From Aurelia coerulea (taxonomy: Eukaryota; Cnidaria; Scyphozoa; Semaeostomeae; Ulmaridae), in contig CM076948.1 of NCBI GenBank assembly GCA_039566865.1, positions 20,471,001 to 20,535,000 of the forward strand: DNA of 64,000 nucleotides, written 5' to 3'. This document shows, piece after piece, positions 29,201 to 62,605 of the stretch. The first letter of the stretch is position 1, and each line of letters starts with the position of its first letter. Both the position numbers and the translations under genes were made by a program. The notes below the pieces were generated by a model, which had not been told where the DNA came from, made no database searches, and saw nothing but the letters and a program-made list of their open reading frames with translations.

Positions 29201-32200
29201 CACTACTGGACCTTTTACCCCCCCCCCCCTTTGCCCCCTCTCGATGGTCCTGCAATAAAGGTCATATGAGGAATCAAGCAGACAACAGTCACTTTTTGAG
29301 GAAAAATGGACACAGAAGAGGGATACTGATACCAGGAGCGAAGCTTTAAACGACTCTTTGTGAAAAAGATAAAATAATTACATCAAAAGAAACAGGGTGA
29401 TACGAAATCACTTCCAGGATCTGCAGCATGATCCAACGGTTCAACGGTGAAATGGGTCCTGTAGATAGAACATGCCCATTGTATATTCCACAAGTGCTTT
29501 AACCCTATCACTACCGGGGGGGGGGGGGGCAAAGTGCCCGCGGCGAAGTCTATTTGATGTAGTGTCGTCAGTTCAAAGGATAAAGAGCTGAAACTTTGCG
29601 ACTTTTCCTAAAATTTCATGAACTAATTAAAATTTGTAATTTTTTCCAAAATGGTAGATACTGATCACGTTACCAACCGCTTTTCAACACGTCGTCAGCC
29701 AGACAATTAAAGAAGCGAGTCCAGTTTTAACAAGGATGACTGTATAACGTTGAGAATACCACCATTCAATAGCTCTCGATGAGAGCTTTCAGAGGATGTA
29801 TAGTTTTATCCATTTTTGATGACGTCAGCAAATTTAACATTCATGACGTCATCAAAGTTTATGACGTCATATGAATAACAACAAATGTATCAGATAACCT
29901 TAAATGGTCAAAATTGGTTCTATTGATTGTTATCAACAATTTTGAGGCATTTTAGAGTATTTTATCAGTAATTAGGGGTTTAAATGAAACAATTACAAAC
30001 TAATGGAAATAAATGATGAATATATGATATAAATAATAAGCTTAAATTGATATTACATTGCCAATTTTTATTCAGCGATGCTTTGGGATATATTCTAGTA
30101 GCATTATGAAAGAAATTATCAACTAAGAACTTAAATATTGCCAATATTGCTAATAGTAAGCAAAAAGTGCAATTTTCCTCAATTATGACGTCATAGTGAC
30201 GTCATTGATGTAATGAAGAATTAAAAAAGTAGCCTATTGTGTAGATTTTGTTCCTGTACACCATTGTACTAAGTTTCGTCCTCATATCTGCAATATTGGC
30301 GAAGTTACGGAGCCCCCCGGTACTACGATGGTCGAAAAAGCCCGGTAGTAATAGGGTTAAATAAAGAAATTACAGAGACTCGATGATGCATGAATCTAGC
30401 TCATTGACAGATTTTGGTCGATTCGCAAAAATGTCACATTTGTTCCAACTCGCGAACGTTTCTTCTCGTGAAAGTGTCTTCCCCTAGTAGACACACAAGT
30501 TTGACATACACACACGAGTTTGACATACACACACAAGTTTGACATACACACACGAGTTTGACATACACACACGAGTTTGACATACACACACAAGTTTGAC
30601 ATACACACACGAGTTTGACATACACACACAAGTTTGACATACACACACAAGTTTGACATACACACACAAGTTTGACATACACACACATACACACACAAGT
30701 TTGACATACACACACAAGTTTGACATACACACACAAGTTTGACATACACACACAAGTTTGACATACACGCCACACACGACTGACATACACACCACACACG
30801 ACTGACATACACGCCACACACGACTGACATACACACCACACACGACTGACATACACTCCACACAAACAATTGACATACACACAACACTTGATTTTTGCCG
30901 GTACGGCGTGCCATATTTACTGAGTGGAGCTAATCTTTCATAAAAAAGTGGATACGAGTTATGGACAGTGAAGTAAATATGATTTTCAAAAATGCGTTTG
31001 GATTCAACAGGAATTTTCAGCTACAATGGACCACAAAATTGAAGGATATCCTTCAAAGACATGGACTTCGTTACATTTTGGGAGCATCAATTTACCCCAG
31101 ATCGAACTATAGACTGGAAAAACTACTTAAATACGGTAATCATACGCTTAAGAGACGGCTGCATTCAAACAACGCTGTCAAACATAAGAAATCAACCAAA
31201 ACCAAGAACATACGATAAAAAACGATTTCCTCATGGAAAATTATTTACTTAACATAAGAAACATAAAGACGAGGGTCGCTGTAAGTAAGTTTAGACTCTC
31301 TGACCACCGACTAGCAATAGAAACTGGAAGATACATAAGACCTAAAGTTGATCCAAAAGACCGTATCTGCCCAGTGTGCAAAGTAACCCAAGATGAAATT
31401 CATTGTCTTGTAACATGTCAGATCAATGGGACAAGCCGCGATGTCCTTTTTGACGAGATCATAAAATCAAAACCCAGCTTCATGTTTATGCACTCTAAAG
31501 ACAAGTTTGTATATTTGATACAAAACAGATCAGAATTAAGTACTCAAATATATAAGTTTATCGAATCGAGCTTGCTCGCCAGCTATGATCATATAAATAA
31601 GACACATACCGATCCAGCTTCAAGCTTCAACTGCTTTTGTTTGTAGCTATGTTTATTGTAATTGTTTAGGTCTGTTATGTTTAGTTAGTATCTCGTCTAG
31701 CTGTTGAGCTATATAACCGTACTGTTATGGCAGGCTGGTTGAGATTTAAATTGAAATTGAAATTGAAATATAATACTCCTTTCTTTAGATGTCTTGTTTT
31801 GGCAAAGTGAATGAGTAACCAAATATTTTTTTCAGGCAAAGCTGATCTTATGATTGGTTTTCAAATTGACAGATTTAGCTCTTTTGGGGGCTCGTTAGTT
31901 TTTGAAGCATACTGCAAAAAAGCACTGGTGGTCACTAGCTTAATTTCTTTCTGTTTATCAAGCTTCTCGTTTCATAAATATCAGAAAGAAACGCCAAAAT
32001 ATGTGTACTCAACTGAGGATTCTAACCTCATTGTAGATAAATGGACAGTCAATTGCATGGAGCCTTGGATCACAAGTTGCGAAGAGAGAAGAAATGTCTC
32101 AAGACATCATGGAGTATTCAAGACCTATTACCAAAAAGTTCATGATTGCTATTGTAGCTATCAGTTCTGCTTTTATTGTCGCTGCGGTGGTGATGATCAG

Positions 32201-40726: not shown

Positions 40727-40765
40727 ATGTTGCTCGTTGCCTTTTGTTTAGCTTTTTCGCATCCT
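40727..40765 (+). CDS. Candidate signal-peptide exon of the DSL-repeat gene
   Basis: ATG followed by L-L-V-A-F-C-L-A-F-S-H-P and then CCT|GTAAGC, phase 0, matching the phase 0 start of the next exon. The hydrophobic core is short but usable. An in-frame stop precedes the ATG. The TATATCTTTAG just before the ATG also looks like a splice acceptor, so the exon could extend a longer leader. Confidence 0.4.
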
Positions 40766-43700
40766 GTAAGCATTTAGCCTAAGTGAAACTTAACTGCGGT
40801 GTAACTGTAACTGCGGTGTTTTTTTTTATGTATCAATCTAAAATTTTACAATAGCAGGACATGGTTACAGGACGGTACCACAGGGAGAATGAGAATGAAT
40901 TGCAACCCCGTGGCTTTAACATATAACATAAAACATTTACATGAAAATAATTAACTAGGCTACAGCATAAACTAAAGCTACGAAAAGAAATAAAATGATA
41001 CAAATGTGGGGGGAGGAGACGAAAATTTCACTGAAATGATTTAAGAAAATCTCTTTGATGATTCAATGAACTCTAGTGTTGCTTTAATGATTGTTTTATT
41101 TGACTCAAAAGGTAACCTTATATCACCATGCAAAATTATTGAAACTAGTTCCTCATTGGAAAGGTTCGACAAACCGTTTGAAATCAAAATTGCCTGTACG
41201 CAGTTGAGGAGGTTATTTCTCTGCAAATAATGATGAGAGTGGCAGTGCAGCAAGAAATGTTCCGTATCCTCAACGCCGTCGTTTATGGGACACATTGGGT
41301 TTAATGTATCACTGAAATTGTGCCTAAATTTATAAAAATTAAGTGCACTTAATCCAACTCGAAGCTGTGTGAGAGCGGCTAGTCCTTTAGGATCACGAAT
41401 ACCAAATAATTGTGGTGTTTGCAGTGATAATTATTATTCTATTTTTCGTCTTATCTAAAAATTATTTGCTTGCACTGGATCTTCTAGAAAAGTTGGAATA
41501 CCGAGCTGCAAATTATCAATTAACTATTTCTTCTTGAAGGAATCAGAAGAAACAGCTGAAGTAATGATTCAATTGATCTCGTACAAGAACCCAACCAACA
41601 AAGACTTTGAAGGGTCAAACTGTGACGGTTCTTGGGGGAACAGTTGGAAATGCGATCCATACTTTGAGATTTGTCTCACAGATTATCGAGGGGTACTTCG
41701 GGGGGGTCACAATACCGCAATACCGCACGAAAAAGACACCAAATACCGCAATACCGCACCAAAAAATAGCAAAATACCGCAAACGCTAGAAAATTAAAAA
41801 CAGCGTTCTTAATATAAATCGTAGTTAGATGTTTTACAGACTAAAATGTGACGTGAGAACGACGGGAAAAGTTTCATTGATGTGCTTTCAGTAAAACTGC
41901 ATTGACGGCAGAAATTATGAATATATACCGGGTGAGCCAGAAAAGAGTTCCCACTTTCGAAGATTCATAGCACAAGAAGTTTTTCATGGATTTGAATGAT
42001 TCAAGTTTTAATTAAAAGCCAAAAGATCAAAGTATTTTTGTGATTTTTCTCGTCCTCTTACGAGCACTGCAAATATAGGTGAATTCAACTTTACAAAAGT
42101 TTCATGTTTTCAAAATGACTGAAAAGGGGCCTAAAACACGTGATCAAATCGTTAGGACTCTCCTAATCCAGAACAATACACACGAGCGCTTCACCTCTGT
42201 CAAGAGCAATAATACATTAGTCAAATGTGCAGACGATATCTCTCACCCATGAGAAATTGCTTTTTCTATGTTGTAGTCCTTTATAATTTGATCACGTATT
42301 TCAGGCCTTTTTCAGTCATTTTGCAACCAAAAATTCTTTCTAAATTTGAAATTACCATTTTTCCAATGCTTGTAAGAAGGCGAGAAAAATCACAAAAATA
42401 CTTCGATCTTTTGGCTGTCAAGCAAATATTGATTCATTCCAACCCATCCAGTACTCTTGATCCTATGAATTTTCAAAAGTGGGAACTTTTTCTGGGTCAC
42501 CCGGTAGAACATATCATTGTTTTGAATATCGATTCTGCTACATAAAGGCGAATATGAGATTAAAAGTTTACTCTGGCTGACGCATTTTTATACACATTTT
42601 CTAGCCTGCGTGCAGACACAACTCCTCGAAAGTATACTTTCGTGGAGTTGAGTCTGCACGCAGGCGAACATTTTCCAAATGTCGATGTAGGTTCATATGG
42701 TTATCCAAATCTACACCACGGTACTTGTATGATTTTGTCTCATGAATAGTTTGATTGTAGATTTTGATGTCCACGTTTGGCTGTTTGGACAACTTTTGAT
42801 GTGATCCATATAGCACAAATTCAGTTTTACCTTTTTTCAAGTTAATGAACAGGTTATTTTCATCAAGCCAGTCTGCAACTTTCTGCAGTTCACTGTTTAA
42901 GTAAACGTTCTATTTCATTTGAGTTATTTCTTGCACAATATAAAGAGTATCGGTCGGCATATAATATAATGCCAGCATCAGTGAACGGAATATGGATGTC
43001 GTTGATTATCAGCCCAAAGAGAAGGGACCCCAGGACGGATCCTTGTGGTACACCACATTTAACGTTTTCTTCGCATGAGCTGGTGTTATCAAAGATTTCT
43101 TATTGTTTCCTATTAAAGAGATAATCATCCATCCATTGTAATGATTCCACATCATCTATGCCATAACTTGGTAATTTTTCCAGCAAGGTTGCATGACACG
43201 TACTGTGTCGAAGGCTTTACGGAGGCCAATATAGACAGCACCACAAAGTAGCCCTTTTCCAACGCTCTGTCTAACCTTTTCTGATAGTAAGGTACCTGCA
43301 TGCTGCATAGATCTCCCTTGTCTAAACCGAAACTGATCTGGCCATTCGATTCAAGGTACTGGGACGGTTCATTATAAATGATCAGATAACTTAGATCTGA
43401 TAGAGCAGGAATTACCGTGAAAGGCGTATACAGTAGAACCCCGCATAAAAGAACCTAGGTTTTTTCTGGGCAGCCTGAATTGGTTCTTAATTAAATGGCT
43501 GCTATTCTAAATTCCAGCCTGTAAGGTTCTTAAAAAGGCTCTTATATACGAGCAGGCCTTGCACACATTAACACTGTTTTCCAGCTCAAGAATCCTTGAG
43601 ATTTCTTGAGACTTCTTGAGAACAAATCTTTTGCACCAATGAAGAAGTCTGATCAGAATGTGAAGAATTCTAAGCATTCTTGTCATGTTAATAATTTACA

Positions 43701-46700
43701 TTAAAGCTATTATATAAGAACCTTTCCCAGTTTCAGCCTTTTAGGGGTTCTTATTTAGGGGGTTTTAAAGATTGAATTTCAGCCTCTAGGTTCTTATAAA
43801 AACAGGTTCTTTTATGCGGGTTTCTACTGTAGTTGTCCAACATTATGCCGGATTGCCTGATTTGAAAATAGGGGTGATTTTCCCACATCTAAAGTTTTGA
43901 TTCGTGCAAATATTTTGATTCTTTTTCTTCAGATAAAAATGTTGCGTGCTCTCCTCCGCAGGCACCTTTTCAAGGTTGAGCAGGTGGAGCAGGCACAAGG
44001 AGAGAGGGATAAGGGACCTCTCTCTCCTTCGTTTTTCTTTCCTCTGTCAATTTGTCTCGAAGATGCGTTGTTCTTCAACAGGAAAATGGCATTACATGAA
44101 GTTTGGATGTTTATGTTCGTACAATACCGCATACCGCGCTGTGAAAGCTCGATACCGCAATACCGCAAGTTTTTCCCGTCATTACCGCAATACCGCAGAA
44201 AATTTACCCCCACTACCGCAATACCGCAAACCCCGAAGTACCCCTCATTATCGCAATCCTTCGTCATTATCAAACTGCAACATCGCTATGTACAAAACAC
44301 GTAAATGGGATAACATTGGCAGTATTACTTTTGGATCTGATCTTGGCAATGGCCATCGAAATCCAGTTCAACCGTCATTCCAGACATGGCAGGTAAGGAT
44401 TAAAAATGCGAAACTTGATTTTGCTTGAAAGATACAAGGCATAAATATTTGAAACGGTGTGTTCCCAAGATTTGGACTGAGGTGGGCCTTTTTCTCTAGG
44501 CGATACGTTATCATAATGTTTGGTTATGCTTGTTAGCACTTAACTTCCTTGCTATGCAACAATTTTTCAGGGTTTGAAATAAGCTTATCATTGCTCAAAT
44601 CTAGCAATTCTTGTCTCCGAGAGGTATGCTCTAAGTTTTAGTTTCCTCCCATGTCTAGTCCATCGCTGCCACCGACATTGTAGCTAACGCTCTACTTAGC
44701 ATTATGGTTGTTGACTGTCAGTCTAGGATAGGGCCAGAGTGTCAATAGTAGGCATTTTACTAGGCTGACAGATACACTGAGCAGTCCACACAGCATTTGA
44801 ATTCTGCTGAAAATAGGCGGACAAATAATCCTTGTTTTGCAGATGGAAGAATACAGCTTCCCCTCAAATAGCAAACCTCAGGGACGTAGGAAGCGTCCCA
44901 AACTTGGAGGGGCACGACACTTCAAGGGCACTTTTTTCATTTAGCTAAAGGGGCACTTTCTGAAAATAAAAAGGGCACTTCTTTGTTTATAGCAAAATCT
45001 TGGGGGGGGCACGTGCCCCCAGTGCCCCCCCCGGTTCCTACGTCTCTGGCAAACCTATAACAACCAATGATTCTTAGGCTATTTGTAAACCTGTATTTAC
45101 GTAGTTCTTCAGCTCATCATTGATTAATTTTCAGGGGTTGGTTGGCATCTACATTAAAGCGATGGATAATGATACGGCAGGAAGTAATGATGACCTAATT
45201 GACACATACACAATAACTTTCAACCTGGTAGCACCTTACAACAACACATCTGGACTTACAAAGGAATATGTATTGAAGGGAAGAGTTAGTACATTCAAAT
45301 TACGAATTTCTGCTAAATGTGATGTTCACTATTATGGAGAAAAATGTGGCATATATTGTCGTCCGCACTCTGACGATACAAAGGGGCATTATAGCTGTTC
45401 ACGTACTGGAACTAAGATTTGCTATGTGGACAGATATGGACCTATATGTAAGAAGTATTGTAAGGCACAAAATGGAACACTTGGTCACTATGAATGTAAC
45501 AAAACTGATGGAAGTAAAATCTGTCACAAATGCTGGTATGGAGATGCTTGCAAGATTTATTGCAAAGCAAGAAATGATAGTCAAGGACACTATGAATGTG
45601 GCAAGAACGATGGTCAGAAAATTTGTCACAAAGATTGGTATGGACAAATCTGTAAGAAGTATTGTAGGGCACAAAATGGTTCCAAGGGTCACTATACATG
45701 TAATAGAAGTAATGGCAGCAGACTTTGTTACAAACATTGGTATGGAACTAAATGCTTGACGTTTTGCAAGCCAGCGAATGATATGAATGGGCATTATACT
45801 TGTGATTCAAAGAGTGGAGACAAAATCTGTCTGAGAAATTGGCATGGAGAAGGATGCCTTCTGTATTGTAAGGAAACAGAAAATTTAAATGGTCATTATT
45901 ATTGTTCTAATGGAGGTGCGAAGATATGCAAGACTGACTGGTTTGGACCAAATTGCACAGTTTACTGCAAGTCTAGAAATGACCGGCTTAAAAGTTATCA
46001 ATGCAATAAGACGACTGGAGAGAAGATATGTAGCAATGGATGGTTTGGAATGAATTGTTCAAAACAATGCAGTCCTAGAGATGATATTTCAGGCCATTAT
46101 ACTTGTAATAAAACAACTGGAGAGAAGACATGCAACCAAGGATGGTTTGGAATGAACTGTACTCTGTACTGTACATCAAAGAGTGATAAACAAGGACATT
46201 ATTTATGCGATCACCAAACCGGAAGAAAAGTTTGTTTAAATGGCTGGTATGGTGAAAATTGCTCTGTCTTCTGTATTGATAGAAATTATTCTTTAGGCCA
46301 CTACCGTTGCAACGTAACAAACGGGGCTAAAGCATGTAGTGATAATTGGTTTGGAAGTAGCTGTACGATTCATTGTGCACCAAAAAATGACACATCGGGG
46401 CATTACCTTTGTGACAAGGCGACAGGAGAAAGGATGTGTTATGATGATTGGTTTGGGGACAACTGTCTCAAATACTGTCACCCAAACCACAATCAAGAAG
46501 AACACTACAATTGCAATCAAACTACTGGTGATAAAGTTTGTCATTACGGTTGGTTTAATGTGAACTGTACCAAGCATTGTGTGCCAAGGAGTGACAGATT
46601 TGGATATTACATATGTGATCATAAAACTGGGGAAAAAATTTGTGAAGAAGGATGGTTTGGTATAAATTGCACTGTTAATTGTGAACCAAAGAATGATGTT

Positions 46701-47169
46701 TCTGACCAAACAAATTCTAATGCAACGATGTTACTGTATGTTGGTATTCCAATTCTGGTTGCTTTCATTCTGTTTTTGTTGCTTATTTGGTCAAAGAATT
46801 CTCATGGATTTGCAAGGTGAGTAAATAATTCAGATCTGTCATCGTAAAATCCATTTATAAGTCTTCATTATCAGTTTGACCAAGTTTCTTCTTGAATCAA
46901 TGAGATTCTGTTCTGTCTTCAGGGAATTAAGAGTTTACCAACCAGAGCGTCTTCGGGAGCGTCTTGTCTTCTTGCGCAATTCCAAATTCTGTGATCTGCA
47001 GTTTAACCCTATTTGTACTGGGCGATTTTTTAGGTATTTTGTACTGGGGGGGGGGGGGCGTTTTTTGCCCCCCCCTCTTTTTCTCCAAAACTACAAAATA
47101 TATAACTTTAAGACTTACCCCTATTGTTCTTTAGACAATTGTCTATTCAAATATAACAATGACAATTAA
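40727..47169 (+). CDS. Notch-ligand-like protein with MNNL and 13 DSL-type repeats
   Basis: Proposed exons: 40727-40765 (candidate signal peptide), 41540-41688 joined to 44254-44392 (one exon split by a transposon), 45135-46816 and 46923-47169. Phases agree, giving about 751 residues. The N-terminal part has I-Q-L-I-S-Y-K-N-P, C-D-P-Y-F-E-I-C-L, I-T-F-G-S-D-L-G-N and an N-D-D-L-I-D-T-Y block, the pattern of the MNNL/C2-like module of Delta/Jagged ligands. Residues about 171-625 hold 13 DSL-type repeats, followed by one membrane helix (about 640-663) and a basic tail. EGF repeats, normal in DSL ligands, are absent. It probably acts at the cell surface in Notch-type or adhesive contacts; that is inference. 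As sequenced, the hAT-like insertion breaks the MNNL exon unless it is spliced out. Confidence 0.75.
41039..41430 (-). pseudogene. LINE ORF2 C-terminal fragment
   Basis: The frame M-C-P-I-N-D-G-V-E-D-T-E-H-F-L-L-H-C closely parallels the end of the complete LINE at 54930-55170 (M-C-P-A-N-D-G-V-E-D-T-E-H-Y). It is a 5'-truncated copy in reverse orientation in the first intron of the DSL gene. Confidence 0.8.
41540..44392 (+). CDS. MNNL exon of the DSL-repeat gene, split by a hAT-like insertion
   Basis: The exon pieces are 41540-41688 and 44254-44392 (288 nt, 96 codons, phase 0 at both ends; acceptor TTCTTGAAG, donor CAG|GTAAGG). Joining after removal of the insertion and one target-site copy restores one frame through D-Y-R-N-P-S-S-L-S-N-C-N-I. 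The Cys pattern and the F-E-I-C-L and T-F-G-S blocks are those of the ligand N-terminal domain that contacts receptor and lipid in known Notch ligands. No obvious in-frame splice pair inside the element was found. Confidence 0.75.
41938..42504. mobile_element. Mariner-like MITE, 567 bp, TA flanks
   Basis: CCGGGTGAGCCAGAAAAGAG and an inverted right end (TTTTCTGGGTCACCCGG region) are each bordered by TA. The next inner blocks (TTCCCACTTTCGAA / TTTTCAAAAGTGGGAA) also pair. No ORF. Confidence 0.8.
42602..42667. repeat. 66-bp hairpin of the TAGCCTGCG family
   Basis: TAGCCTGCGTGCAGAC and GTCTGCACGCAGGCGA form a hairpin. The flanks CACATTTTC and AACATTTTC are 8/9 identical, which suggests a 9-bp target duplication. 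Confidence 0.6.
42668..43420 (-). pseudogene. LINE reverse transcriptase fragment with mutated YADD
   Basis: Read on the minus strand: C-G-V-P-Q-G-S-V-L-G-S-L-L-F, then Y-A-D-R where the catalytic Y-A-D-D belongs, then a K-T-E-F-V-L-Y-G-S block. Frameshifts near 42900 and upstream. A dead copy nested in the hAT-like element. Confidence 0.75.
44879..45048. mobile_element. hAT-like MITE, 8-bp TSD GCAAACCT
   Basis: CAGGGACGTAGGAAGC and the inverted end GGTTCCTACGTCTCTG are flanked by perfect GCAAACCT copies at 44871-44878 and 45049-45056. A 170-bp element in the intron before the DSL-repeat exon. Confidence 0.9.
45135..46816 (+). CDS. DSL-repeat exon: end of MNNL, 13 repeats, membrane helix
   Basis: The acceptor AATTTTCAG opens G-L-V-G-I-Y-I-K-A-M-D-N-D, the end of the MNNL/C2 module. 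The first DSL unit starts C-D-V-H-Y-Y-G-E-K-C. A unit of 33-34 residues then recurs to give 13 in all, each with a G-H-Y-x-C core, a G-x-K-x-C step and a W-[FY]-G-x-x-C-x-x-x-C end. Successive units share the W-[FY]-G-x-x-C segment, so the domains interlock rather than follow one another. Many N-x-S/T sites are present. The helix L-L-Y-V-G-I-P-I-L-V-A-F-I-L-F-L-L-L-I-W follows. The donor is CAAG|GTGAGT, phase 2. Confidence 0.9.
46923..47169 (+). CDS. Cytoplasmic-tail exon, read through into a piggyBac-like MITE
   Basis: The acceptor TCTGTCTTCAG continues the frame with R-E-L-R-V-Y-Q-P-E-R-L-R-E-R-L-V-F-L and a Cys-Asp-Leu-Gln end. At 47003 a TTAA element begins, and its left end supplies the last 55 or so codons to a stop at 47167-47169. 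Without the element the frame would end after about 6 more residues (N-S-H-G-H-S, stop at 47921-47923). Confidence 0.6.
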
Positions 47170-47900
47170 TAAGTCACGTGATTCGTTGCTAGGCAACCGA
47201 AAAACTGACGAAAATTGGCAAATTTATACCTTCTTCACCAGAAAAATTCTATTTAATTAACCACTCAACCGATTTTCTCCAAATTTGTTTCAAATAGTAG
47301 GAAACATGTTATAGTTTAAAAACTATATACTTTTCAAAATTTTTTAGTTTCTATTTTTAGCACAATTAGCCTTAAATTAGCCTTTTGTTGCATGCATTTA
47401 CTGTCATCGCAGGTTTTGCCAGTCCTGTCCTTTTATCTGGTAAATATAGACTCAAAATGAATCAAATAAATAAGATGAAGCAAATTAGACTAAAAAAATT
47501 TATATCTTACACTTCTTTATTAGAGAAATGACGTCATAAATGTGAATGATGTCATAGATATCAAATTTTGCTGACATAAGCAAATATGAAAAATTTATAT
47601 ATCAAATGAAAGTACTCATTAAATGCAATCGAATGGTGCATGTTTAAGATCGATCAGGCAAACGATACGAAAACTGCGGGCATTTTAAGCTTTTTCTTTG
47701 TTGATTACTCTCCAAATATGGTATTACTGTGGTCACATGATCAGAGGTAGAACAATGAAATGTTTAGAATTTAATTGCCTATGAAATTTGAGTAAAAGTC
47801 ACCAAAACTGGTGGTTATATCTCTTGTCGTTTTAGCGTAACGCATCAAAAACTGGTAGGGGGGGGGGGGCGAAAAACGCCCCCCCCCAGTACAAATAGGG
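47007..47900. mobile_element. piggyBac-like MITE (TTAA) in the tail exon
   Basis: CCCTATTTGTACTGGG and its inverse CCCAGTACAAATAGGG are flanked by TTAA at 47003-47006 and 47901-47904. G-runs lie just inside both ends. Related in layout and termini to the elements at 27159 and 29503. No transposase. Confidence 0.85.
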
Positions 47901-47931
47901 TTAACAGTCATGGTCATTCATGAAGGATATT

Positions 47932-48067: not shown

Positions 48068-48299
48068 GGATATTTTGATAAAAACTGGATAGACAATTTT
48101 TAGTGTCAGTTAGGGTGTCGGGGGTCGTAATCGGATGGCGTTGGTAATCGGACACTTGCGAAAAACTCTCGAAAACTAACAGAAAAGTACGTTGCAATTA
48201 AAATCCATCAAAGAGGGTAATTTGTGGTACTGAAAGCTAACATTTTAGATACTAAACATCTTTACGAAAAGACTTGGTACTCTACCATGGTACTCTACC

Positions 48300-48765
48300 A
48301 TGGACAGAGGAGAAGTAAACCTAGCTATCTTTCTTGATCTGAAAAAAGCATTTGATACAGTTGATCACACCATCCTGTTAGCAAAATTAGAGAAATATGG
48401 CATAAGAGGTATAACAGGTGACTGGTTTACCTCATATTTACAAAATAGGAAACAGTTTTGCACAGTGGGTGGGCATAAATCCTCAGCTAAAATGATAACT
48501 TGTGGGATACCTCAAGGCTCCTGTCTTGGTCCACTCCTGTTCATATTCTTGCTGAATGATTTCGAAACGTGCCTAGAATTATCAAAAGCCAGCATGTATG
48601 CAGATGACACGCATGTTACGATGACATTCAACAACCTTGAAAATCTACTTGAGAATGCTCAAAGAGAACTTCTCAATATTTCAGAATGGTTGAGAATCAA
48701 TAAACTGACAGCCAATCCAAAGAAAACTGAATATATGTTGATTGGCCATCCCCATAAAGTCAATT
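48300..48765 (+). pseudogene. Older LINE reverse transcriptase, left part
   Basis: V-N-L-A-I-F-L-D-L-K-K-A-F-D-T-V-D-H (palm motif A), G-I-P-Q-G-S-C-L-G-P-L-L-F (motif B) and M-Y-A-D-D-T-H-V (motif C) are intact, ending at G-H-P-H-K-V-N before a T-run. Its frame happens to run straight into ORF1 of the younger LINE, which makes a false 312-codon fusion. The continuation of this old copy is at 55389-55800. Confidence 0.8.
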
Positions 48766-48778
48766 TTTTTTTTTGCCA

Positions 48779-49238
48779 TGGCTGCGCAGTGTGCGGACGT
48801 GTTTTTGAATCCAGTGATGATTGCCTTTCAAAGGTCAAAGATGTCTTCGAGGAGTTAAAGGTTGATGTACCCGATCTTGTAATAGATCGGGCCCACAGAA
48901 TTGGCAAAACTGAGACCAAGAACGGGAAACGATTACGCGCAATCATCGTGCGCTTTACCACCTGGCGCCATAGAACACAAGTTTACCGAGCTAGAAAAAA
49001 TTCCAAGAAATTCAATGTTCGTTTGGATATTACCAAGAGACGGCTTGATTTGATTTTTAAAGCAAACAAAATGTTAGAGGATGATGGAAGAAATGACTGC
49101 TTTGCGTTTGCAGATATAAACTGCCGCACTTGCGTGAAGCTTGCAGATGGATTCCACTTCTTTGAGACTGAAGAGGATCTCATGGAAGTTCTATATCCAA
49201 GAGATACCGATAAAGAGGATACTCTATCAAGTGAGTAA
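48779..49238 (+). CDS. LINE ORF1-type RNA-binding protein, 5'-truncated
   Basis: About 150 codons with V-P-D-L-V-I-D-R-A-H-R-I-G-K, R-A-I-I-V-R-F-T-T-W-R-H-R and F-N-V-R-L-D-I-T-K-R-R match the RRM-like and C-terminal region of LINE ORF1 proteins, which chaperone the RNA. A typical coiled-coil N-terminus is missing. Reading starts in the frame of the older RT to its left, so the true start is lost. The stop is at 49236-49238. Confidence 0.7.
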
Positions 49239-49912: not shown

Positions 49913-50146
49913 GATCGCATTTGAAATTATTCCAAAGATATACCTCATACAAAATATTTTACATTGCCACATTGATAATAAAGATTTTTCAGTATCAGGG
50001 GAACAGCACCACACTTTTTCGAATCATGTCGAGAAAACCTTTTATATCGAAAAGATTTGTATTAATCTTTTCATTGTTCTCTATTTCTGTATTTAAGTGT
50101 TCTTTATTATATTTAGATTTGTCCAGTTCTAGCATTACCCATAGCT

Positions 50147-53100
50147 GTGCATATCCAGGTCATTGCAAGTCATTCGTTTGACCCGAACTCTAGTCTGTTG
50201 CCTTTGGTTGCCCAGTTACATTCACTCACGAAAATTGTTTTGTACGTGGCCATAGAAATATTAAAAAGGACACCTTTCTTTTTGCTACGTGTTCTCCACA
50301 GACAGAAAAGCTCAATCAAATACTTTCTGCTCAGCTACAATTATTTTTTCATGATATGCATGACATTTCATACACTTCGATCACAATGGTATGTTACTGG
50401 TAGGTTACTTTTATTGAGCGGTGACATAGAGAAAAATCCTGGCCCTAATTCTTTACATTTTTGTACGTGGAATCTGAACAGTATAAGTGCACATGATTTC
50501 CTCCGAGTCTCCCTCCTTGAGGCTTATAATTCTGTCTATGATTATGATCTGATAGGTATCGTAGAAACGCACCTTAACAGTACTGTTGATGAAAGTAAGA
50601 TAGGCCTTGATGGCTACTCATTCCATAAAAGTAACTATCCGCAAGATGTTAAACGTGGAGGTGTTGGGCTGTACGTTAAAGAATCGTTCCCTGCCAGAAG
50701 GAGACCTGACCTCGAGACTCAACCTGAATGCATAGTATGTGAGATCAAACTCAACCGGAAAAAATACTTTTTTGCCGTCCTCTATAGGAGTCCAAGCCAA
50801 ACCCAAGTAGAATTCGAGGGATTTAGAAATAATTTTGAACTAATGTTGTCGAAGATGTCTGCCGAGAATCCTTTCAGTGTTATTATCACTGGAGACTTTA
50901 ACTGTCGTTCCTTGCAATGGTGGGATGGTGAATTTGAAAACGAAGAGGGTAAAATCTTTGAGCCATTCACAGCTGACCTTGGCCTGAACCAACTGATCTC
51001 TGAACCAACTCACATTATGGGTGAGTCAAAGTCATGCATAGACTTGGTCCTTACAGATCAGCCCAATCTATTTCTTGAAAGTGGCGTCCACCCCTCTTTA
51101 GATGAACTGTGTCATCATCATATCATCTATGGCAAAATAATTGTAACAAATGTAGCTCCACCCCCTTATCGTCGTAGAATATGGTTTTACGATCGGGCAA
51201 ATATCTTTGCAATCAGGAGGAGTATTGCCATGTTCAATTGGCAGGAAACCTTAGACTGGCTACACAATCTCTGTATGCTCCTTAGAACTGATTTGTCGCT
51301 AATACAGAGACTTGTTGCCAAACAGTGTCTGAAATCGGACTAACTTGATAGCCTCGTTTTCATAAGCGCTACATGTGTAAAACGCGGACCACGGAATTAA
51401 TATTTGGTTGTTGTTGCTGCTGTGATCAGTAATCATCAAAATGACTCCAGAAAACAACACATTGATACCAAGTTTTATTCATGTGAATTTGAAAGAATTT
51501 TAGACAGTTTATGACTCTGACAAAATTGAGCATGGACAGTGAACATAAATTTGAAATTTCAGAGGAGTTCAGAGTGACCAAAGATAAGGAATCAAAGATT
51601 TGACCAGATTAGGCATTACATCATCATTATACATTATCATTAGCAATCAGTTAAGTGGTATCTGAAGTGCAGGGAATTTTCAAAGGAACTGTCCTTTATA
51701 TTTGCTCCGAGTGATTTGCTGCATCAGATAGACAATCTCTCTCCAGGAAAAGTGCCATCTAAATGCATCCTGGTACAAGGTCTGATAATAATGAAGCAGG
51801 TATCTTGCTTTAAACAAACCCCTATAGATTAAAGATATCAACATCAATGTGATGAAGTAACAAATACTTGTTAAATCACAAGCAAAAAATTATATCACCC
51901 TTTCCTTTCCCTATGTGATCCAAGCACGGGGGGGGGGGGGGTTGGATCACATAAGGAACTTCCATAGTAAAATTACCTGGGGATTTTTAGTCATGTTCAC
52001 AAAAAACCATAAAATTTTTTTACTAAAATATCTAAAGATTGTTTCATTTGGCAAATCAAGTGCATTCAAACCAAAACAACTGTTAAGGTGATAAAGTACA
52101 ACAGCCCAACATTGCGAAGTAACATGCTTGCAGTTAGATAATATTAGAAATTGAAATACACTAGCCAAATGTAAACGAAAAAATCACTACTAACCTGAAC
52201 TTAGAGTAGGCCTACACCTACACTACACTGCAGTTTTGTACTGACAAATGACACTCACTGCTGTCTTGAAAATGCCTCTCAAGTATTGCAACAGCATTAC
52301 ATTTTGCCATTTCCTGTTAGAGCACAAACAAATATCTCTTCCCAGTGCCCACTTTATCATGCCAAATGGCTGGCTAAATTCCTTCAGCTTCATTTGCTTC
52401 TGGTCGATCAAGCTGCGACGACAGCGCCGGTCGCCATTGCATTGCTTCTTCTTGAAAAACTCAGACCAAACAGGCCTCTACTTCAAAGGGAGGTTTTCCA
52501 GTAAAAATAAGTAAAGAGAGGAAAAGTTGATTGGCTACAAAATAATTTACTATTGTTTTAGCCGAAATGCTCCAATCAGATTTACAATTCGGTTTTTCGT
52601 TCTGAAAATTCCGATTTGAGACACTCTCTGGCAACTAGTCCCTCATTGAGCTGGCCATCAGCAACAACAACAACAGCGAAATCGAGGGACTAGTGTAGCT
52701 AGTCTAAGGAAACCTTAGGTCAAATAAATTGCCCGGATCAGCAAGTTAAGTGTCTAAACGAGGCTCTGCTAAATATTTTCAGCAACTTCATACCTAATAG
52801 TCTCATAACAGTTAAGCCTCGGCAGGCACCTTGGATAACACAGTCAATAAAAAATTTTCTACGAAAGAAGAATCGCGCATATAGATCCTTTGTTCGGAGC
52901 GGCCAATCAGGAGAAAGATTAGAAGGTATTCTGGGAATGATATCACAGGGAACTAAAATGATCGAGGATGCGAAGCAGAAATACCTGATGAAAATTGGTC
53001 AAACACTTTCAAATCCGAATACAGGTCAAAAAACATATTGGTCATTAATAAATAAAATTCTTAACAAAGTTAAAATTCCCATTATTCCACCTCTTTTGGA

Positions 53101-55177
53101 AAATGATATATTTGTCTTGGATTTTACAACTAAGGCAGAAATATTTAATGACTACTTCATACTCCTATGTACCGTTATTGATACGGGCAGTGCAGTTCCC
53201 AATGATGTTCCTTTCCATGCTCCGACATTGACCACCTTCCATATTTCCGATGAGAAAATACTAAAGATCATCCGATCATTAAATCCTAACAAAGCTCATG
53301 GTTGGGATGATATTTCTGTGCGTATGATAAAAATTAGTGAAGAGGCACTTGTTGTTCCACTTAGGCTCATTTTTGAAAACTGTAAAAGTAAAGGCATTTT
53401 TCCACAAATTTGGAAACAGGCTAATATAGTACCAGTTCACAAAAAAAGCAGCAAACAACTGAAGCAAAATTATCGTCCGATATCCCTACTCCCAATTTTT
53501 GGAAAAATTCTAGAAAAGTTAATGTTTGATAGTCTCTATGAGCACTTAAATGTGAATAACTTATTAAATCCAAACCAATCCGGCTTCCGTCCCGGCGACT
53601 CTACAATAAACCAGCTATTGTCAATTGTCCACACGATATTCACTGCTTTTGACTGTAATCCCACTCTAGATGTTCGATCAGTTTTTCTTGATATATCTAA
53701 AGCATTTGACAGAGTGTGGCATGATGGTCTTATCTATAAGCTGCAGTGTTGTGGTATTCGCGATGATCTACTTCTAATCATTCGAAGCTTCCTTGCAAAC
53801 AGAAAACAACGTACGGTTCTGAATGGTAAAACGTCAAATTGGGGTTCAGTTACAGCTGGCGTTCCCCAGGGTTCAATCCTTGGTCCTTTGTTCTTTCTTG
53901 TGTATATTAACGACCTGACCGAGGACCTTAGATGCAATGCTAAACTCTTTGCTGATGATACGTCCCTTTTCACTATTGCACATAATTCAAACGCTACTGC
54001 TTCCGACATGAATCATGACCTAGATATCATAAAAGCTTGGGCGTCTAAATGGAGAATGTCATTCAATCCTGATCCAAATAAACAGGCTGTGGAAGTGACG
54101 TTTTCTACGAAAAGAGTCAAAACAGATCATCCTGATATTCTTTTTGGAGGTAACCCAGTGGTGAGAGTTGATGAGCACAAGCACCTCGGTGTTATATTAG
54201 ATTCGAAGTTGTCATTTGCTAGCCATATACAAACAGCTCTTACTAAATCTAGACAGGGAATAGGTATGATCAAATACCTCTCAAAGTACTTGCCACGTCA
54301 CACATTAAATGAGCTGTACAAACTCTATGTTAGACCGCATTTAGATTATGGTGATGTTATCTACCATACCCCAGCAAAAATCTGTGAATTCAGTCATGAT
54401 ACTATCTTGAATACCCAAATGGAGAAGCTAGAATCGGTTCAGTACTCTGCTGCGTTGGCAGTAACTGGTGCTTGGAAAGGGACATCCCGTGAGAAACTGT
54501 ACAATGAGCTCGGATGGGAATCTTTGAACCTGCGACGCTGGAGCAGACGCCTTGTTATGTTTTACAAGATTGTAAATAACGTTACGCCAGAGTATACAAG
54601 GCATCCCATACCACAACTTGAACAGCCTATGTACTCTCTTCGTGAGCATCATGTCATTGGGCAAATAAAGGCAAGGACAGAGAGATTTAAAAACAGTTTT
54701 TACCCAAATTGTTTGAACGAATGGGACAAGCTCCATCCTGAAATTAGACAGGCATCCTCGCTAAGTGTTTTTAAATCAAAAGTATTAGCTCTAATTCGGC
54801 CCCCTTCGAAACCAGTATATGGGATTCATGACCCGAAAGGTTTAGCTATCCTTACACAGTTAAGAGTCGGCCTCAGCAAATTAAGTTCTCACAAATTTAG
54901 GCACAATTTTAGAGATACAATAGACCCGATGTGTCCTGCAAATGATGGTGTTGAGGACACGGAACATTACCTGCTGCTTTGCCAATCTTATGAAGAACCT
55001 AGACGCGAGCTTCTCAATGGTCTCAATGCAATATTGCCTCCTAGTGGATTTTCTAACCTCTCAAATGAATTATTAGTTGAACTCATTCTGTATGGCAATG
55101 AAAGGTTACAACCTGACGTTAATAAAAGAATAATCGAGGCTACTCTAAAATTCGTTCACGCAACAAAGCGCTTTTGA
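50147..55177 (+). CDS. LINE ORF2: 2A motif, APE endonuclease, reverse transcriptase, zinc-binding end
   Basis: The frame occupies 50147-51251 and resumes at 52716 after a transposon. Residues 92-100 read G-D-I-E-K-N-P-G-P (50420-50446), a canonical 2A ribosome-skipping motif preceded by R-L-L-L-L-S. The endonuclease follows: C-T-W-N-L-N-S, G-I-V-E-T-H-L and G-D-F-N-C-R blocks with catalytic-type Glu and Asp residues. The reverse transcriptase has F-L-D-I-S-K-A-F-D-R-V, G-V-P-Q-G-S-I-L-G-P and F-A-D-D-T (53948-53962). A C-P-A-N-D-G-V-E-D-T-E-H-Y-L-L-L-C zinc-type motif lies near the end. Met codons near 50354 are alternative starts that leave a short leader before the 2A motif. A related reverse fragment lies at 41039-41430. 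Confidence 0.88.
51252..52706. mobile_element. Mutator-like nonautonomous element, 9-bp TSD AGGAAACCT
   Basis: TAGACTGGCTACAC and the inverse of TAGACTAGCTACAC bound 1455 bp, flanked by AGGAAACCT at 51243-51251 and 52707-52715. Removing the element and one duplication restores the LINE frame W-Q-E-T-L-G-Q-I-N-C. A second hairpin (ACTAGTCCCTC / GAGGGACTAGT) sits at 52636-52694. A G-run lies near 51928. No transposase. Confidence 0.85.
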
Positions 55178-58440: not shown

Positions 58441-61400
58441 CTAGTCTGTTGCTACAACTGTTCCATATCTTTCGGGCATTCGTCTTTGTCTAACAGGATA
58501 TCTGTTTTCTCTGTTATTCTCTTCAACTGTTTCTGTTCTTTTGTGATTGTCATCATCAGACAAATCATCATCATCATCATCTTTCTTACTAAACTTTTTG
58601 AAAAAGCTAATATTTCTAGTGACTTTCCTTCCATCTTGTCTTTCTGCTGTTACTCTGGAACCTTTACGATATATAACTTTGTAAGTAGTGCTTTCAAAGT
58701 TTGCAGAAAACTTGTTCTTTTTATCTTGTTTTAACAAAACTGTATCACCAACTTTGATATCAGAAGTCTTTGTGTGTCTTCTTTTGTCTGCATAGCTTTT
58801 CATCTTCTCTTTCCCAACTGCATCATTTTCCTGAGCTTCTCTGTGTCTTTTAGATTTACTTGTCTTGATTAAACAAGGTAGTTTCCCTCTAATGACCCTA
58901 TTGTATAACAGTTCTGAAGGTGCAATCTTTGTGGTTGCATGTGGGGTGGATCTATAACTCAATAAAAATCTTTGAAGTTCTTGTCTCCAATTTCTATTTT
59001 CTATACATGCAGCTCTAATTGCTTTTCCTAAAGGTTGATTAAATCTCTCTACCTCTGAGTTCCCTTGGGGCCATAATGGTGTAGAAGGGTCAAACTTTAT
59101 TCCTAGAGTCATCAAGTATCTTTCAAAATCATCACCATTAAATGGTGGACCATTGTCTGTTACTATTTCTTCAGGAAGTCCATGCATTGCAAAAACTTGA
59201 TCTAATTTTGGAATAATGGTTGGAGCAGCAGTAGATCTTACAATTTCTGTTATGGGGAATCTAGAATAAGCATCTACAATAACAAGTATATACTCACTAC
59301 TTGGAAGTGGTCCATAAAAGTCAATATGCAGTTTTTTCCAAGGTCCAGATGGCATAGGTCTCATTCGCAATGGTTCTGGTGCTTTTTGTGTTCCTACTGC
59401 TTGACAAGGTAAACAGCTACTAATCTCTTCTGTTACCAATTTTTCAATAAATGGAAACCAAACTTTTTCTCTGATCAGGGCTTTAGTCTTAGCAAGGCCC
59501 TGGTGACCCTCGTGAGCTAGTTTTACTGATCTTTTCCATAATGATTTAGGCATGACAATTTGGTTTCCCCGCAAAATAATTCCATTTGCATGATTAATTG
59601 TCAATGAATCTTTGGCTAGCTTGTAAGGTACTAAAAACTGGTTACTCCAATCTCCTGTTTCAATTGCCTTTATGACTGCTTGGAGTGTCCCATCTTTTTC
59701 TGTCTCTCTTTGTACTTCTTCTATGGTCATGGCTTTTGGTATTGCATTTATTGTTATATATCTCACATACTCATCTGCCATGTTTTCTTTGACACTGACT
59801 GTTGTAGGATGTCTTGACATGAAGTCAGCCGGATTATCTTTTCCAGGCTTGTAAATAACTTTGAAACAATACTGCTGTAAGCGGAGCACCCATCTTTCAA
59901 TGCGCAATGATGGTTTTGATTTAGGGTTCCCATAAATCACCTCCAAAGGCTTGTGATCTGTTATCAGGTTGAAACTTTTTCCATAAAGATACATATGAAA
60001 ATGTTCAGTACCCCACACAATACTAAGTGCTTCTTTCTCAGTTTGTGAGTATCGACGTTCCACAGGGGTAAGTGCTCTACTGGCATATGCAATCACTTTT
60101 TGAGGCTCATCTTTGTTTGATTGTGCAAGAATTGCAGAAATACCAATGGGACTGGCATCTACAATCAGGTATGTTTCTTTTTCAATATCAAAATATGTCA
60201 TAACTGGACTGTCTGTCAGAACATCTTTGAGTTTCTTAAATGCTTGTGAGTGTTCTTTCTCCCATTTGAATACAATGTTTTTGTGAGTTAATCTTCTCAG
60301 TGGTTCTGTTATATCTGCAAAATTTGGTATGAACTTTGCACTGAAATTTGCCATTCCTAATAAACTTCTCACTTCTGATGCATTGTTTGGTATAGGAGCA
60401 TCTACTAAATCTGCAATCTTCTTTTGATCTGGTTTGACACCATCTTCTGAAAATACCATACCAAAGAATGAAAGTTCTGGTTGTAAAAATTTACATTTTT
60501 CTCTGTTTACTGTAAGCTTTCTTGCCTTTAATCTTGCAAGACATTCATTCAATGCTTTATCATGCTCTGCTCTGGTTTTGCCAAAAATGATAATATCATC
60601 TGCTAAGTTTCTGACATTATCTATACCCTTTAAAGCTTCTTGTAATGTATGTTGAAATAACTCAGCAGCTGCATTTGTGCCATAGTTTAATCTTTTGTAC
60701 TGGAATAAACCAATGTGCGTGCTGAACGTAGTGATATATCTGCTATCTTTGTGCAATTCTAACTGATGGTATGCTTGACTAAGGTCTATCTTTGAAAAGA
60801 ATTTAGCTCCATTTAATTGTACCATAATTTCATCAACTGTGGGCATGACATGTCTAACTCTTTTTATGGCTGTGTTTGCTGAACGCATATCAACACAAAT
60901 TCTAATTGACTTATTGTCCTTCTTTGGTACTGCAACTATCTGGGATATCCAAGGGGTTGCTTGCCCCTCTGGCACTCTCTCTATTATTCCTTGTGCTTCC
61001 AGACTTAACAATTCTTCTTCTACTTGCTTTCTGATGTGAAATGGTATACGTCTGGTATTTTGAACAACTGGAGTTACATTTTCATCAATGTTCAATTTAA
61101 TTTGAACTCCATCTAACTTTCCTATTCCTCTAAAAATTTCTTTATTTGCAAGTAAAGCAGCATCAACTGATTTATCATGGGTAGATCTGATAGGAATCCA
61201 TGAGCAGGTGGAAGCAATTTGTGGTTTCACATTTTTATCTTTCACTTTTGAAGCCATTGGATTGATGTGAAAGGTAACAAGACCAAGTTCTTGGGATGTC
61301 TCTGAACCTAATAGTGAACCAGAGTTCCCTTCTGTGACATAAAATGTGGCTACAGTAATGCGCTTTTTGGTCTCCACAGTGGCTTGGAATTTTCCTAATA

Positions 61401-62439
61401 ATTTTACAGGGCTGTTGCTGTTGTATGGGTACACTTTAACTGTTGTTTTCTCTAATTTAGGATCTGATGGTATCTGACTAAATGTTTCTTCATCAAGAAT
61501 ATTTACTGAGGCTCCAGTATCCACAAGTAAATCACATTTGTAATCACTGATTTTGGCAGTAACAGTGTTACCAGGTTTTTCCTTCTGTTTCACAGCATAG
61601 ATGTAATCAAAATCTGAATCAGAATCACTTTGTGTTTTATCCATTGATTTTGTTGTAATTGGCCTAACATGTCTTTTGAAAGGCTGTGTTTTCCTTGGCT
61701 CTTGTTGAGTTTTGCTCATACAATACTTTGCAAAGTGGTTCTTTTTCCCACATTTATGACATATCTTACCAGCAGCTGGACAGGTCTGGTTTTTATGAGG
61801 GTAAGATCCTCCACACTGATGACATTTCTTTGTTTGTACATGTCCTTTCTTGTGCTGACTGTGTATTACACGATGCACTTCTTGTTTTGTTTCAATGTTA
61901 CCTTCAATGCTACTTGCTTGCTGTGTACTTGTTTCATCTCTTTGGCCATCTAATAACATTTCTTTCAGTGTGTATTTTGGATCTCGTAAAGCTTTCTTTC
62001 TTAAACGACTTGATGATCCATTTGTGACAATTTGCAACAATATTTCGAACTCTTTTCTATCCCCAAAGTCACAACGTGAGGCTAAGTTCTGTAATCGAAC
62101 ATGGAATTGACCTAAAGTCTCATTTGGCTCTTGTCTGGCCTGGCGAAATAAATATGTTTCATGAAGCAAGTTCTTCTGTGGCTCAAAATGTCCCGTGAGC
62201 TTTTCTAACGCTGTTTTGTAATCATCTCCATTATCTGGGATTGTATTCAGGATATCTGCAACTGGTTCTCCAGCCAAATAAATCAACAGGGCTCTTTTTC
62301 TTTTATCATCTTTGATATCAGCAGCGACCAAGTACTGCTCGAATCTTGAAACCCAACGTTTCCATGCGTTACACGCGTTGGCAGGGTCTGACACTGCATC
62401 AAACGGAGGCACAGGTTGTATTGAACCAGCTCCTGCCAT
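58441..62439 (-). CDS. Gypsy Gag-Pol polyprotein, 1332 residues
   Basis: One uninterrupted frame. Gag occupies about 1-205, with two Cys/His knuckles at 206-240 (the second is C-H-K-C-G-K-K-N-H-F-A-K-Y-C). The protease active site D-T-G-A is at 307-310. Reverse transcriptase follows with L-A-D-D at 612-615, and RNase H with D761, E803 and D828. The integrase has a zinc-binding H-E-G-H…C-x-x-C (976-1012) and a D-D-E triad at about D1040, D1095 and E1131. Gag and Pol share one frame with no stop or shift. The C-terminal acidic D-D-D-D-D-D-L-S-D-D-D stretch is notable. All catalytic residues are present, so the copy may be competent. Confidence 0.95.
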   Translation of the reverse strand: MAGAGSIQPVPPFDAVSDPANACNAWKRWVSRFEQYLVAADIKDDKRKRALLIYLAGEPVADILNTIPDNGDDYKTALEKLTGHFEPQKNLLHETYLFRQARQEPNETLGQFHVRLQNLASRCDFGDRKEFEILLQIVTNGSSSRLRKKALRDPKYTLKEMLLDGQRDETSTQQASSIEGNIETKQEVHRVIHSQHKKGHVQTKKCHQCGGSYPHKNQTCPAAGKICHKCGKKNHFAKYCMSKTQQEPRKTQPFKRHVRPITTKSMDKTQSDSDSDFDYIYAVKQKEKPGNTVTAKISDYKCDLLVDTGASVNILDEETFSQIPSDPKLEKTTVKVYPYNSNSPVKLLGKFQATVETKKRITVATFYVTEGNSGSLLGSETSQELGLVTFHINPMASKVKDKNVKPQIASTCSWIPIRSTHDKSVDAALLANKEIFRGIGKLDGVQIKLNIDENVTPVVQNTRRIPFHIRKQVEEELLSLEAQGIIERVPEGQATPWISQIVAVPKKDNKSIRICVDMRSANTAIKRVRHVMPTVDEIMVQLNGAKFFSKIDLSQAYHQLELHKDSRYITTFSTHIGLFQYKRLNYGTNAAAELFQHTLQEALKGIDNVRNLADDIIIFGKTRAEHDKALNECLARLKARKLTVNREKCKFLQPELSFFGMVFSEDGVKPDQKKIADLVDAPIPNNASEVRSLLGMANFSAKFIPNFADITEPLRRLTHKNIVFKWEKEHSQAFKKLKDVLTDSPVMTYFDIEKETYLIVDASPIGISAILAQSNKDEPQKVIAYASRALTPVERRYSQTEKEALSIVWGTEHFHMYLYGKSFNLITDHKPLEVIYGNPKSKPSLRIERWVLRLQQYCFKVIYKPGKDNPADFMSRHPTTVSVKENMADEYVRYITINAIPKAMTIEEVQRETEKDGTLQAVIKAIETGDWSNQFLVPYKLAKDSLTINHANGIILRGNQIVMPKSLWKRSVKLAHEGHQGLAKTKALIREKVWFPFIEKLVTEEISSCLPCQAVGTQKAPEPLRMRPMPSGPWKKLHIDFYGPLPSSEYILVIVDAYSRFPITEIVRSTAAPTIIPKLDQVFAMHGLPEEIVTDNGPPFNGDDFERYLMTLGIKFDPSTPLWPQGNSEVERFNQPLGKAIRAACIENRNWRQELQRFLLSYRSTPHATTKIAPSELLYNRVIRGKLPCLIKTSKSKRHREAQENDAVGKEKMKSYADKRRHTKTSDIKVGDTVLLKQDKKNKFSANFESTTYKVIYRKGSRVTAERQDGRKVTRNISFFKKFSKKDDDDDDLSDDDNHKRTETVEENNRENRYPVRQRRMPERYGTVVATD

Positions 62440-62463
62440 TTTCTTTTTCTTTCCTAGTTTATT

Positions 62464-62473
62464 CTCGTCGCCA
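62464..62473 (-). promoter_or_regulatory. Gypsy tRNA primer-binding site
   Basis: TGGCGACGAG on the minus strand lies one base inside the 5' LTR. It is complementary to a tRNA ending CTCGTCGCCA, as serine tRNAs of the GCU type do. Confidence 0.75.
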
Positions 62474-62474
62474 T

Positions 62475-62605
62475 TGTCGGATATTGAAGGGTGGACGCAG
62501 ATAGTACACCATTTTGTTGTCTGCCTCGTGTATCAACTCTAACTTAGATTCCGGGGGGCCTGGGTCTTACATATATGATAATAATCATAACCATAAAACA
62601 TTACA
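62475..62605 (-). repeat. Gypsy 5' LTR, 131 bp
   Basis: Identical to 58194-58324. It should hold the promoter and start site, although no clear TATA box is visible on the minus strand. Confidence 0.93.

Follow-up and report, generated by a model that had tools for sequence, protein, structure and literature searches.

A 64,000-nucleotide stretch of the Aurelia coerulea contig CM076948.1 (C6:20471001-20535000, in an assembly of 574 Mb and 294 contigs; hereafter the window) carries a gene whose main exon encodes the end of an MNNL/C2 module, 13 interlocked DSL units and a membrane helix. Sequence comparison places this gene in a family of proteins derived from Notch ligands and built of an MNNL/C2 head and a subsequent chain of four-Cys units of about 34 residues; the unit loop, Cys-x3-W-[FY]-G-x2-Cys, serves both as the end of one DSL domain and as the beginning of its successor, and arrays of 4-45 DSL matches lie in single open exons. 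The family is a much larger variant of cnidarian DSL-array genes that had been noted but not explained. As to function, we consider it an even call whether these are tail-less, rod-like adhesion or recognition proteins of Notch-ligand ancestry, a reading which we favour over that of an activating Notch ligand.

The chained DSL array

The main exon (561 codons, 56 Cys) lies in an open frame spanning 45105-46820 (+) and encodes, in order, about 60 residues completing the MNNL/C2 module, 13 DSL units, the start of a 14th, a membrane helix and a short tail. A preliminary description of the window had continued the gene in a further exon to 47169; instead, the frame ends at a TGA stop (46818-46820) and the sequence up to 47169 runs into a repeat element.

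45135..46820, + strand: main exon (MNNL end, 13 DSL units, membrane helix), open frame, acceptor TTTTCAG/GGG
45318..46670, + strand: array of 13 interlocked DSL units, from Cys1 of unit 1 to Cys6 of unit 13
46731..46787, + strand: transmembrane helix LLYVGIPILVAFILFLLLI, then the tail WSKNSHGFAR; assigned by hydropathy, with a helix at residues 541-551 of the structure model at low confidence

The 13 interlocking DSL-type units of 33-34 residues proposed in that description, with each W-[FY]-G-x-x-C end doubling as the next start and a single membrane helix after the array, were borne out. Pfam DSL (PF01414) matched the main exon in 13 stretches (E 1.1e-97, 320.5 bits against a cut-off of 24.2), and 14 unit starts were found 33-34 residues apart, with a Cys period of 9-4-12-9 that is off by one residue at three places, twice in unit 1 and once in unit 6; there is also a single additional Cys. 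Since a DSL match needs about 44 residues but one starts every 33-34, the final loop of a match doubles as the opening loop of its successor, and in the window array this sharing is literal: Cys5-Cys6 of one unit are Cys1-Cys2 of the following one. The strict full-DSL pattern, with the six Cys of the domain, was present in 12 of the 13 units and in none of 2000 shuffles, the exception by inspection being unit 8, where Q precedes Cys3. The EGF and laminin-EGF families, named beforehand as the competing assignment, fared far worse: teneurin EGF (EGF_TEN) reached 64.7 bits, with a cut-off of 65, over the residues matched by DSL, and no ordinary EGF or laminin-EGF was listed for the main exon (Pfam scan, E<=1), which otherwise gave a chance-level Tad2-like match. 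The canonical Notch-ligand layout, a single DSL followed by EGF repeats, is thus not that of the window gene with its 13 DSL stretches.

Comparison with solved structures pointed the same way. A 54-residue piece around unit 8 matched 16 PDB sequences, of which 12 were Notch ligands (33-44 bits), and in the five alignments displayed 41.0-42.8 bits fell to the DSL domain and no more than 16.5 to the EGF region after it. For units 1-5 and 7-13, the structure model had a predicted local distance difference test (pLDDT) score of 81-94 in the majority of ten-residue blocks, and a Foldseek search with it returned 27 matches at E<=0.001, comprising 26 Notch-ligand entries and one SCARF1.

An MNNL/C2 head split by a transposon

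An MNNL-like N-terminal module had also been proposed, encoded upstream by two exons. The module was partly supported, while the two exons proved to be one, interrupted by a transposon.

41540..41687, + strand: MNNL/C2 exon, first part; acceptor inferred at 41538-41539, 3' end being one target-site copy, ATTATC
41688..44246, no strand assigned: transposon in the MNNL exon, 2559 bp, with 16-bp perfect terminal inverted repeats GAGGGGTACTTCGGGG and a 6-bp target duplication
44247..44392, + strand: MNNL/C2 exon, second part; donor CAG/GTAAGG

Pfam MNNL (PF07657) gave 21.6 bits for the first piece against a cut-off of 22.5 (a single piece scored alone) and no match for the second. A profile built from the N-termini of seven homologues matched the first piece (41540-41687) with 36.3 bits at profile positions 7-64, the second (44247-44392) with 29.2 bits at positions 51-100 and a third window piece with 27.4 bits at positions 94-158, so that the three follow in consecutive order and together cover positions 7-158.

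The target duplication ATTATC stands at 41682-41687 and 44247-44252, and the empty site is provided by a paralogue on this contig, at a distance of about 19.5 Mb: this gene has ATTATC once, and its exon at C6:1049656-1049997 is whole and scores 78.1 bits to the homologue profile. Window positions 41449-41688 are 88% identical to this paralogue. The first 113 bp of the transposon had at least 40 genome matches at 98-100% identity, its own copy included (40 of 526 candidates scored), and this near-identity marks the insertion as young; reverse-transcriptase-like frames in its interior were seen by eye rather than by profile scan. Judged from the assembled sequence, the window copy would make no complete head, unless splicing removes the insertion or the insertion is polymorphic. 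The signal-peptide exon at 40727 is only a tentative start of the protein, since it had no blastn counterpart within 8.9 kb upstream of the MNNL exon of the paralogue, the 2060-residue array described below.

DSL arrays elsewhere in the genome

A search of the genome for the DSL family gave at least 146 matches (150 scored of 192 candidates), and 18 stretches around DSL matches were fetched, together with four upstream extensions. Six array loci were found besides the window, with open frames of 2060, 1742, 602, 592, 413 and 275 residues containing 40, 45, 14, 10, 4 and 7 Pfam DSL stretches, respectively. The two largest were:

C6:1043051-1049230 (L009 1052-7231), - strand: 2060-residue array, single frame, 40 DSL stretches, 525-residue Ser/Thr-rich stalk, membrane helix and 4-residue tail
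C21:12994133-12999358 (L010 2634-7859), - strand: 1742-residue array, single frame, 45 DSL stretches, many near-identical 34-residue units

An MNNL-like exon lies upstream in all six of these further loci; that of the 2060-residue array is intact, and some are weak, the weakest being those of the 1742-residue array (17.2 bits) and the 592-residue array (20.6 bits, 7.5 kb away). In four arrays the exon continues into a stalk (103-525 residues, 35-38% Ser+Thr), a membrane helix and a short tail, four or five residues in length (LYKR, YAYTR, KICR, VMYLR). The 602- and 275-residue frames lack this continuation, although a stalk and membrane exon less than 1 kb downstream of the latter probably belongs to its gene. 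Tandem 102-bp repeats (14.5 copies at 80% match in the 1742-residue array, 2.1 copies at 99% in the 2060-residue array) indicate that tandem duplication, in part recent, is how the arrays expand.

On C6, C3 and C4 there are other DSL exons, which appeared by eye to hold two linked units or one. Exons with two linked units (L015, L017, L019, L022, L023), three of them at C6:1.17-1.24 Mb near array genes, look like a further type of DSL gene, and L025 resembles an ordinary ligand, with DSL followed by EGFs.

Origin and constraint of the window copy

The first 523 codons of the main exon align with the 2060-residue exon at 89.9% base identity. This similarity ends at 46708, and from 46713 the window is 84% identical to C6:1065783-1066049 (-), the membrane exon of a neighbouring array gene; the switch makes the window gene an in-frame chimera of two genes, which lie about 16 kb apart and some 19.5 Mb from the window on the same contig. 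The chimera, the transposon-split MNNL exon and the much larger arrays in the same genome all lay beyond what the preliminary description could have seen from the window alone.

46709..46712, + strand: chimera junction, between the end of similarity to the 2060-residue paralogue and the start of similarity to the neighbour's membrane exon

It might be argued that the window copy is merely a dead duplicate, uninformative by itself, given that its MNNL exon holds a transposon with stops and its 3' end is chimeric. We regard this as quite improbable. The 561-codon frame is intact, the chimeric joint preserves the frame and supplies a membrane helix, and the insertion is recent; moreover, non-synonymous (dN) and synonymous (dS) divergence from the 2060-residue exon are 0.075 and 0.274, a ratio of 0.27 where roughly 0.6 would be expected of a copy dead since duplication. 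Between window units, the non-synonymous proportion (pN) was below the synonymous (pS) in 66 of 66 pairs. The ratio indicates protein-level constraint since duplication on at least one copy, more likely on both.

In the assembled haplotype, with its MNNL exon split by the young transposon, the window copy probably represents either a disabled allele or a pseudogene of recent origin.

Homologues in other animals

Two protein searches gave 29 matches from 1379 candidates and 38 matches from 2318, with named source genera including Oculina, Actinostola, Nematostella, Montipora, Dendronephthya and Mnemiopsis; the best-scoring named relatives of the window protein were hexacorals. A Pfam scan of ten of the 38 homologues listed 6-15 DSL stretches in each and MNNL over the cut-off in one (P0003, 40.3 bits). 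In the eight that were not ctenophore-like, the only EGF family over its cut-off was teneurin-EGF, in P0002 and P0004, while P0017 (Mnemiopsis) and P0019 had laminin-EGF over the cut-off. Some homologues have short tails, such as YSYHKR in P0001 and VTYVR in P0012.

The Nematostella P0004 (named 'protein draper' at source) and the coral or octocoral P0002, P0005 ('jagged-1a-like') and P0009 ('jagged-1b-like') resemble the window protein in having 7-15 DSL stretches and, apart from the teneurin-EGF of P0002 and P0004, no Pfam EGF family over the cut-off. P0002, P0004 and P0009 share its membrane helix as well and differ in having tails of 66-146 residues. Jagged-like and draper names on such genes can mislead.

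Three multi-DSL homologues, P0019, P0021 (from the ctenophore Mnemiopsis) and P0027, have long tails rich in Yxx[ILV]-type tyrosine motifs, and the first two also have laminin-EGF. Inspection by eye further showed MYNNPLF in the tails of both P0007 and P0013, themselves multi-DSL proteins, and, in the short-contig proteins P0025 and P0016, an MNNL-like module that apparently comes behind DSL units, in the manner of a second head; for P0025, MNNL is among the Pfam matches.

The draper name raises the question of a recognition receptor akin to Draper, CED-1 or SCARF, acting in engulfment or immunity. Draper/CED-1 receptors combine EGF-like repeats with a tail bearing an immunoreceptor tyrosine-based activation motif (ITAM) or NPxY, and the repeats of SCARF1 and Draper are EGF-like units, not DSL. 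Their Cys-rich repeat rods are similar to the present arrays, SCARF1 was the sole protein other than Notch ligands among the 27 best structure matches, and the long-tailed homologues with NPL[FY] or many Yxx[ILV]-type motifs (by eye) would suit such a role. Against this, the name of P0004 appears automatic, the DSL scores of the units far exceed those of EGF families, and the window gene and the large arrays are without a long motif-bearing tail; in the window gene, Pfam listed no ordinary EGF and no ITAM/NPxY-type tail was found. We therefore rate a receptor of this kind as unlikely.

Adhesion rod or Notch ligand

In Delta, Jagged and Serrate the MNNL/C2 module and DSL also stand in this order, and these ligands supply the best sequence and structure matches among solved structures, but they have one DSL followed by EGFs, in contrast to the many DSL units, no ordinary EGF and 10-residue tail found here. 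Delta, Jagged and Serrate ligands have a longer cytoplasmic tail, and the tail of the window protein, with its one Lys, lacks the ubiquitylation and endocytosis signal of a canonical ligand. Five Notch-facing residues of the DSL domain (F199, R201, R203, D205 and F207; PMC3415683) were scored, and all five occurred together in none of the 13 window units and none of 134 units in seven arrays. Without EGF1-3, the full Notch-face set or a cytoplasmic tail for endocytosis, the protein would not be an activating Notch ligand. Among the roles initially suggested (multivalent Notch ligand, decoy or adhesion protein), activation is accordingly the least supported, and the other two still stand.

As a Notch decoy or cis-inhibitor, the protein would bind Notch through its C2-DSL head and block it, its tail being too short for endocytosis, with the many units adding avidity. 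This seems doubtful: F207 is kept in only 12 of the 134 units and R201 in 5, the EGF1-2 domains, with which a Jagged-1 MNNL-DSL construct regains full Notch binding (PMC2725086), are absent, and the large stalked arrays appear built for reach.

Adhesion or recognition at a distance is the role that we prefer. The disulphides of the DSL domain are consecutive (1-2, 3-4, 5-6), with superposable 1-2 and 5-6 loops, and Jagged-1 extends over 120 A in four domains, about 3 nm each (PMC3415683). By this analogy, and with loops shared as above, an array would form an unbroken glycosylated rod that has no linkers, contains two disulphides in each unit, measures tens to more than 100 nm in length and may hold the C2 head off the membrane for cell-cell or cell-matrix adhesion or recognition.

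Several observations weigh against this interpretation. The pLDDT was below 50 at residues 228-260 and the predicted template modelling score (pTM) was 0.40 and 0.52 in two models. Three canonical-looking (by eye) single-DSL exons in the same genome retain only 3, 2 and 0 of the five residues facing Notch, which makes the Notch-face argument weak, and it is weakened further by the report that sponge Deltas do not conserve essential DSL binding sites (PMC3482393). In two arrays teneurin-EGF scored above its threshold (183.4 and 70.2 bits, where DSL scored 973.4 and 249.3), which makes the units EGF-related, although in the Pfam scans of the window array and its paralogues no EGF, laminin-EGF or teneurin-EGF family outscored DSL. 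The number of units in the near-identical part of the 1742-residue array is assembly-dependent. Finally, the tails of P0002 (66 residues), P0004 (146), P0009 (100) and P0019 (259) are long, some with tyrosine motifs, so that signalling is possible in the wider family.

Relation to earlier reports and to the origin of DSL

The layout had been thought unlike any described family, which holds for its scale only. Gazave et al. 2009 (PMC2770060) noted cnidarian DSL-only genes with 1-11 repeats and one gene with MNLL and three DSL, and doubted that they were genuine, regarding them as possibly misassembled. Those genes likewise have repeated DSL in cnidarians, one with an N-terminal module, beside ordinary Delta and Jagged, whereas the present ones reach 13, 40 and 45 stretches, each array lying in one open exon and accompanied by an MNNL-like exon and, in some genes, by a stalk and membrane anchor. 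No description of interlocking units was found in the accessible portion of that paper, nor, in the accessible portions of the Notch-ligand and DSL literature, of arrays this large, of loop sharing in arrays or of a function for them. AmqDelta4 of the sponge Amphimedon is similar in combining MNLL and DSL with a transmembrane segment and no EGF, and differs in having apparently one DSL (PMC3482393). At the sequence level, the present data go far to settle the doubt of Gazave et al., as DSL-array genes are found to be constrained, anchored and members of a family with up to about 45 interlocked units. For structural biologists, they offer a natural DSL rod in which to test how domain loops can be shared.

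A published suggestion derives DSL from tandem EGFs by truncation (PMC3415683, PMC2725086). The interlocking chain offers a concrete alternative, which we put forward as a speculation with the balance of probability against it: DSL may originally have been one link of such a chain, a 34-residue unit with two disulphides and a W-[FY]-G loop common to neighbours; the lone DSL of Delta and Jagged would then be one unit plus the closing loop left over, and anthozoans (ctenophores less regularly) would have kept chains as giant tail-less surface rods that work outside Notch activation.

Neighbouring elements in the window

47003..47904, no strand assigned: second inverted-repeat element, behind the gene, with 20-bp ends TTAACCCTATTTGTACTGGG and a 4-bp duplication, CAGT, at 46999-47002 and 47905-47908

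Further along the window are a reverse transcriptase frame (48249-49238, +), an endonuclease frame (50117-51343, +), a reverse transcriptase frame of the long interspersed nuclear element (LINE) type (52703-55177, +; 93% to an unnamed record) and a 1363-residue open frame resembling a retrotransposon polyprotein (58441-62532, -), with protease, reverse transcriptase and integrase motifs seen by eye. Two short-period tandem arrays, inverted to each other (26101-27081, +, and 30396-31020, -), have frames that read as Cys-rich VCVCQTCVCMSN repeats and are likely to represent a duplicated satellite-bearing element, not a gene.

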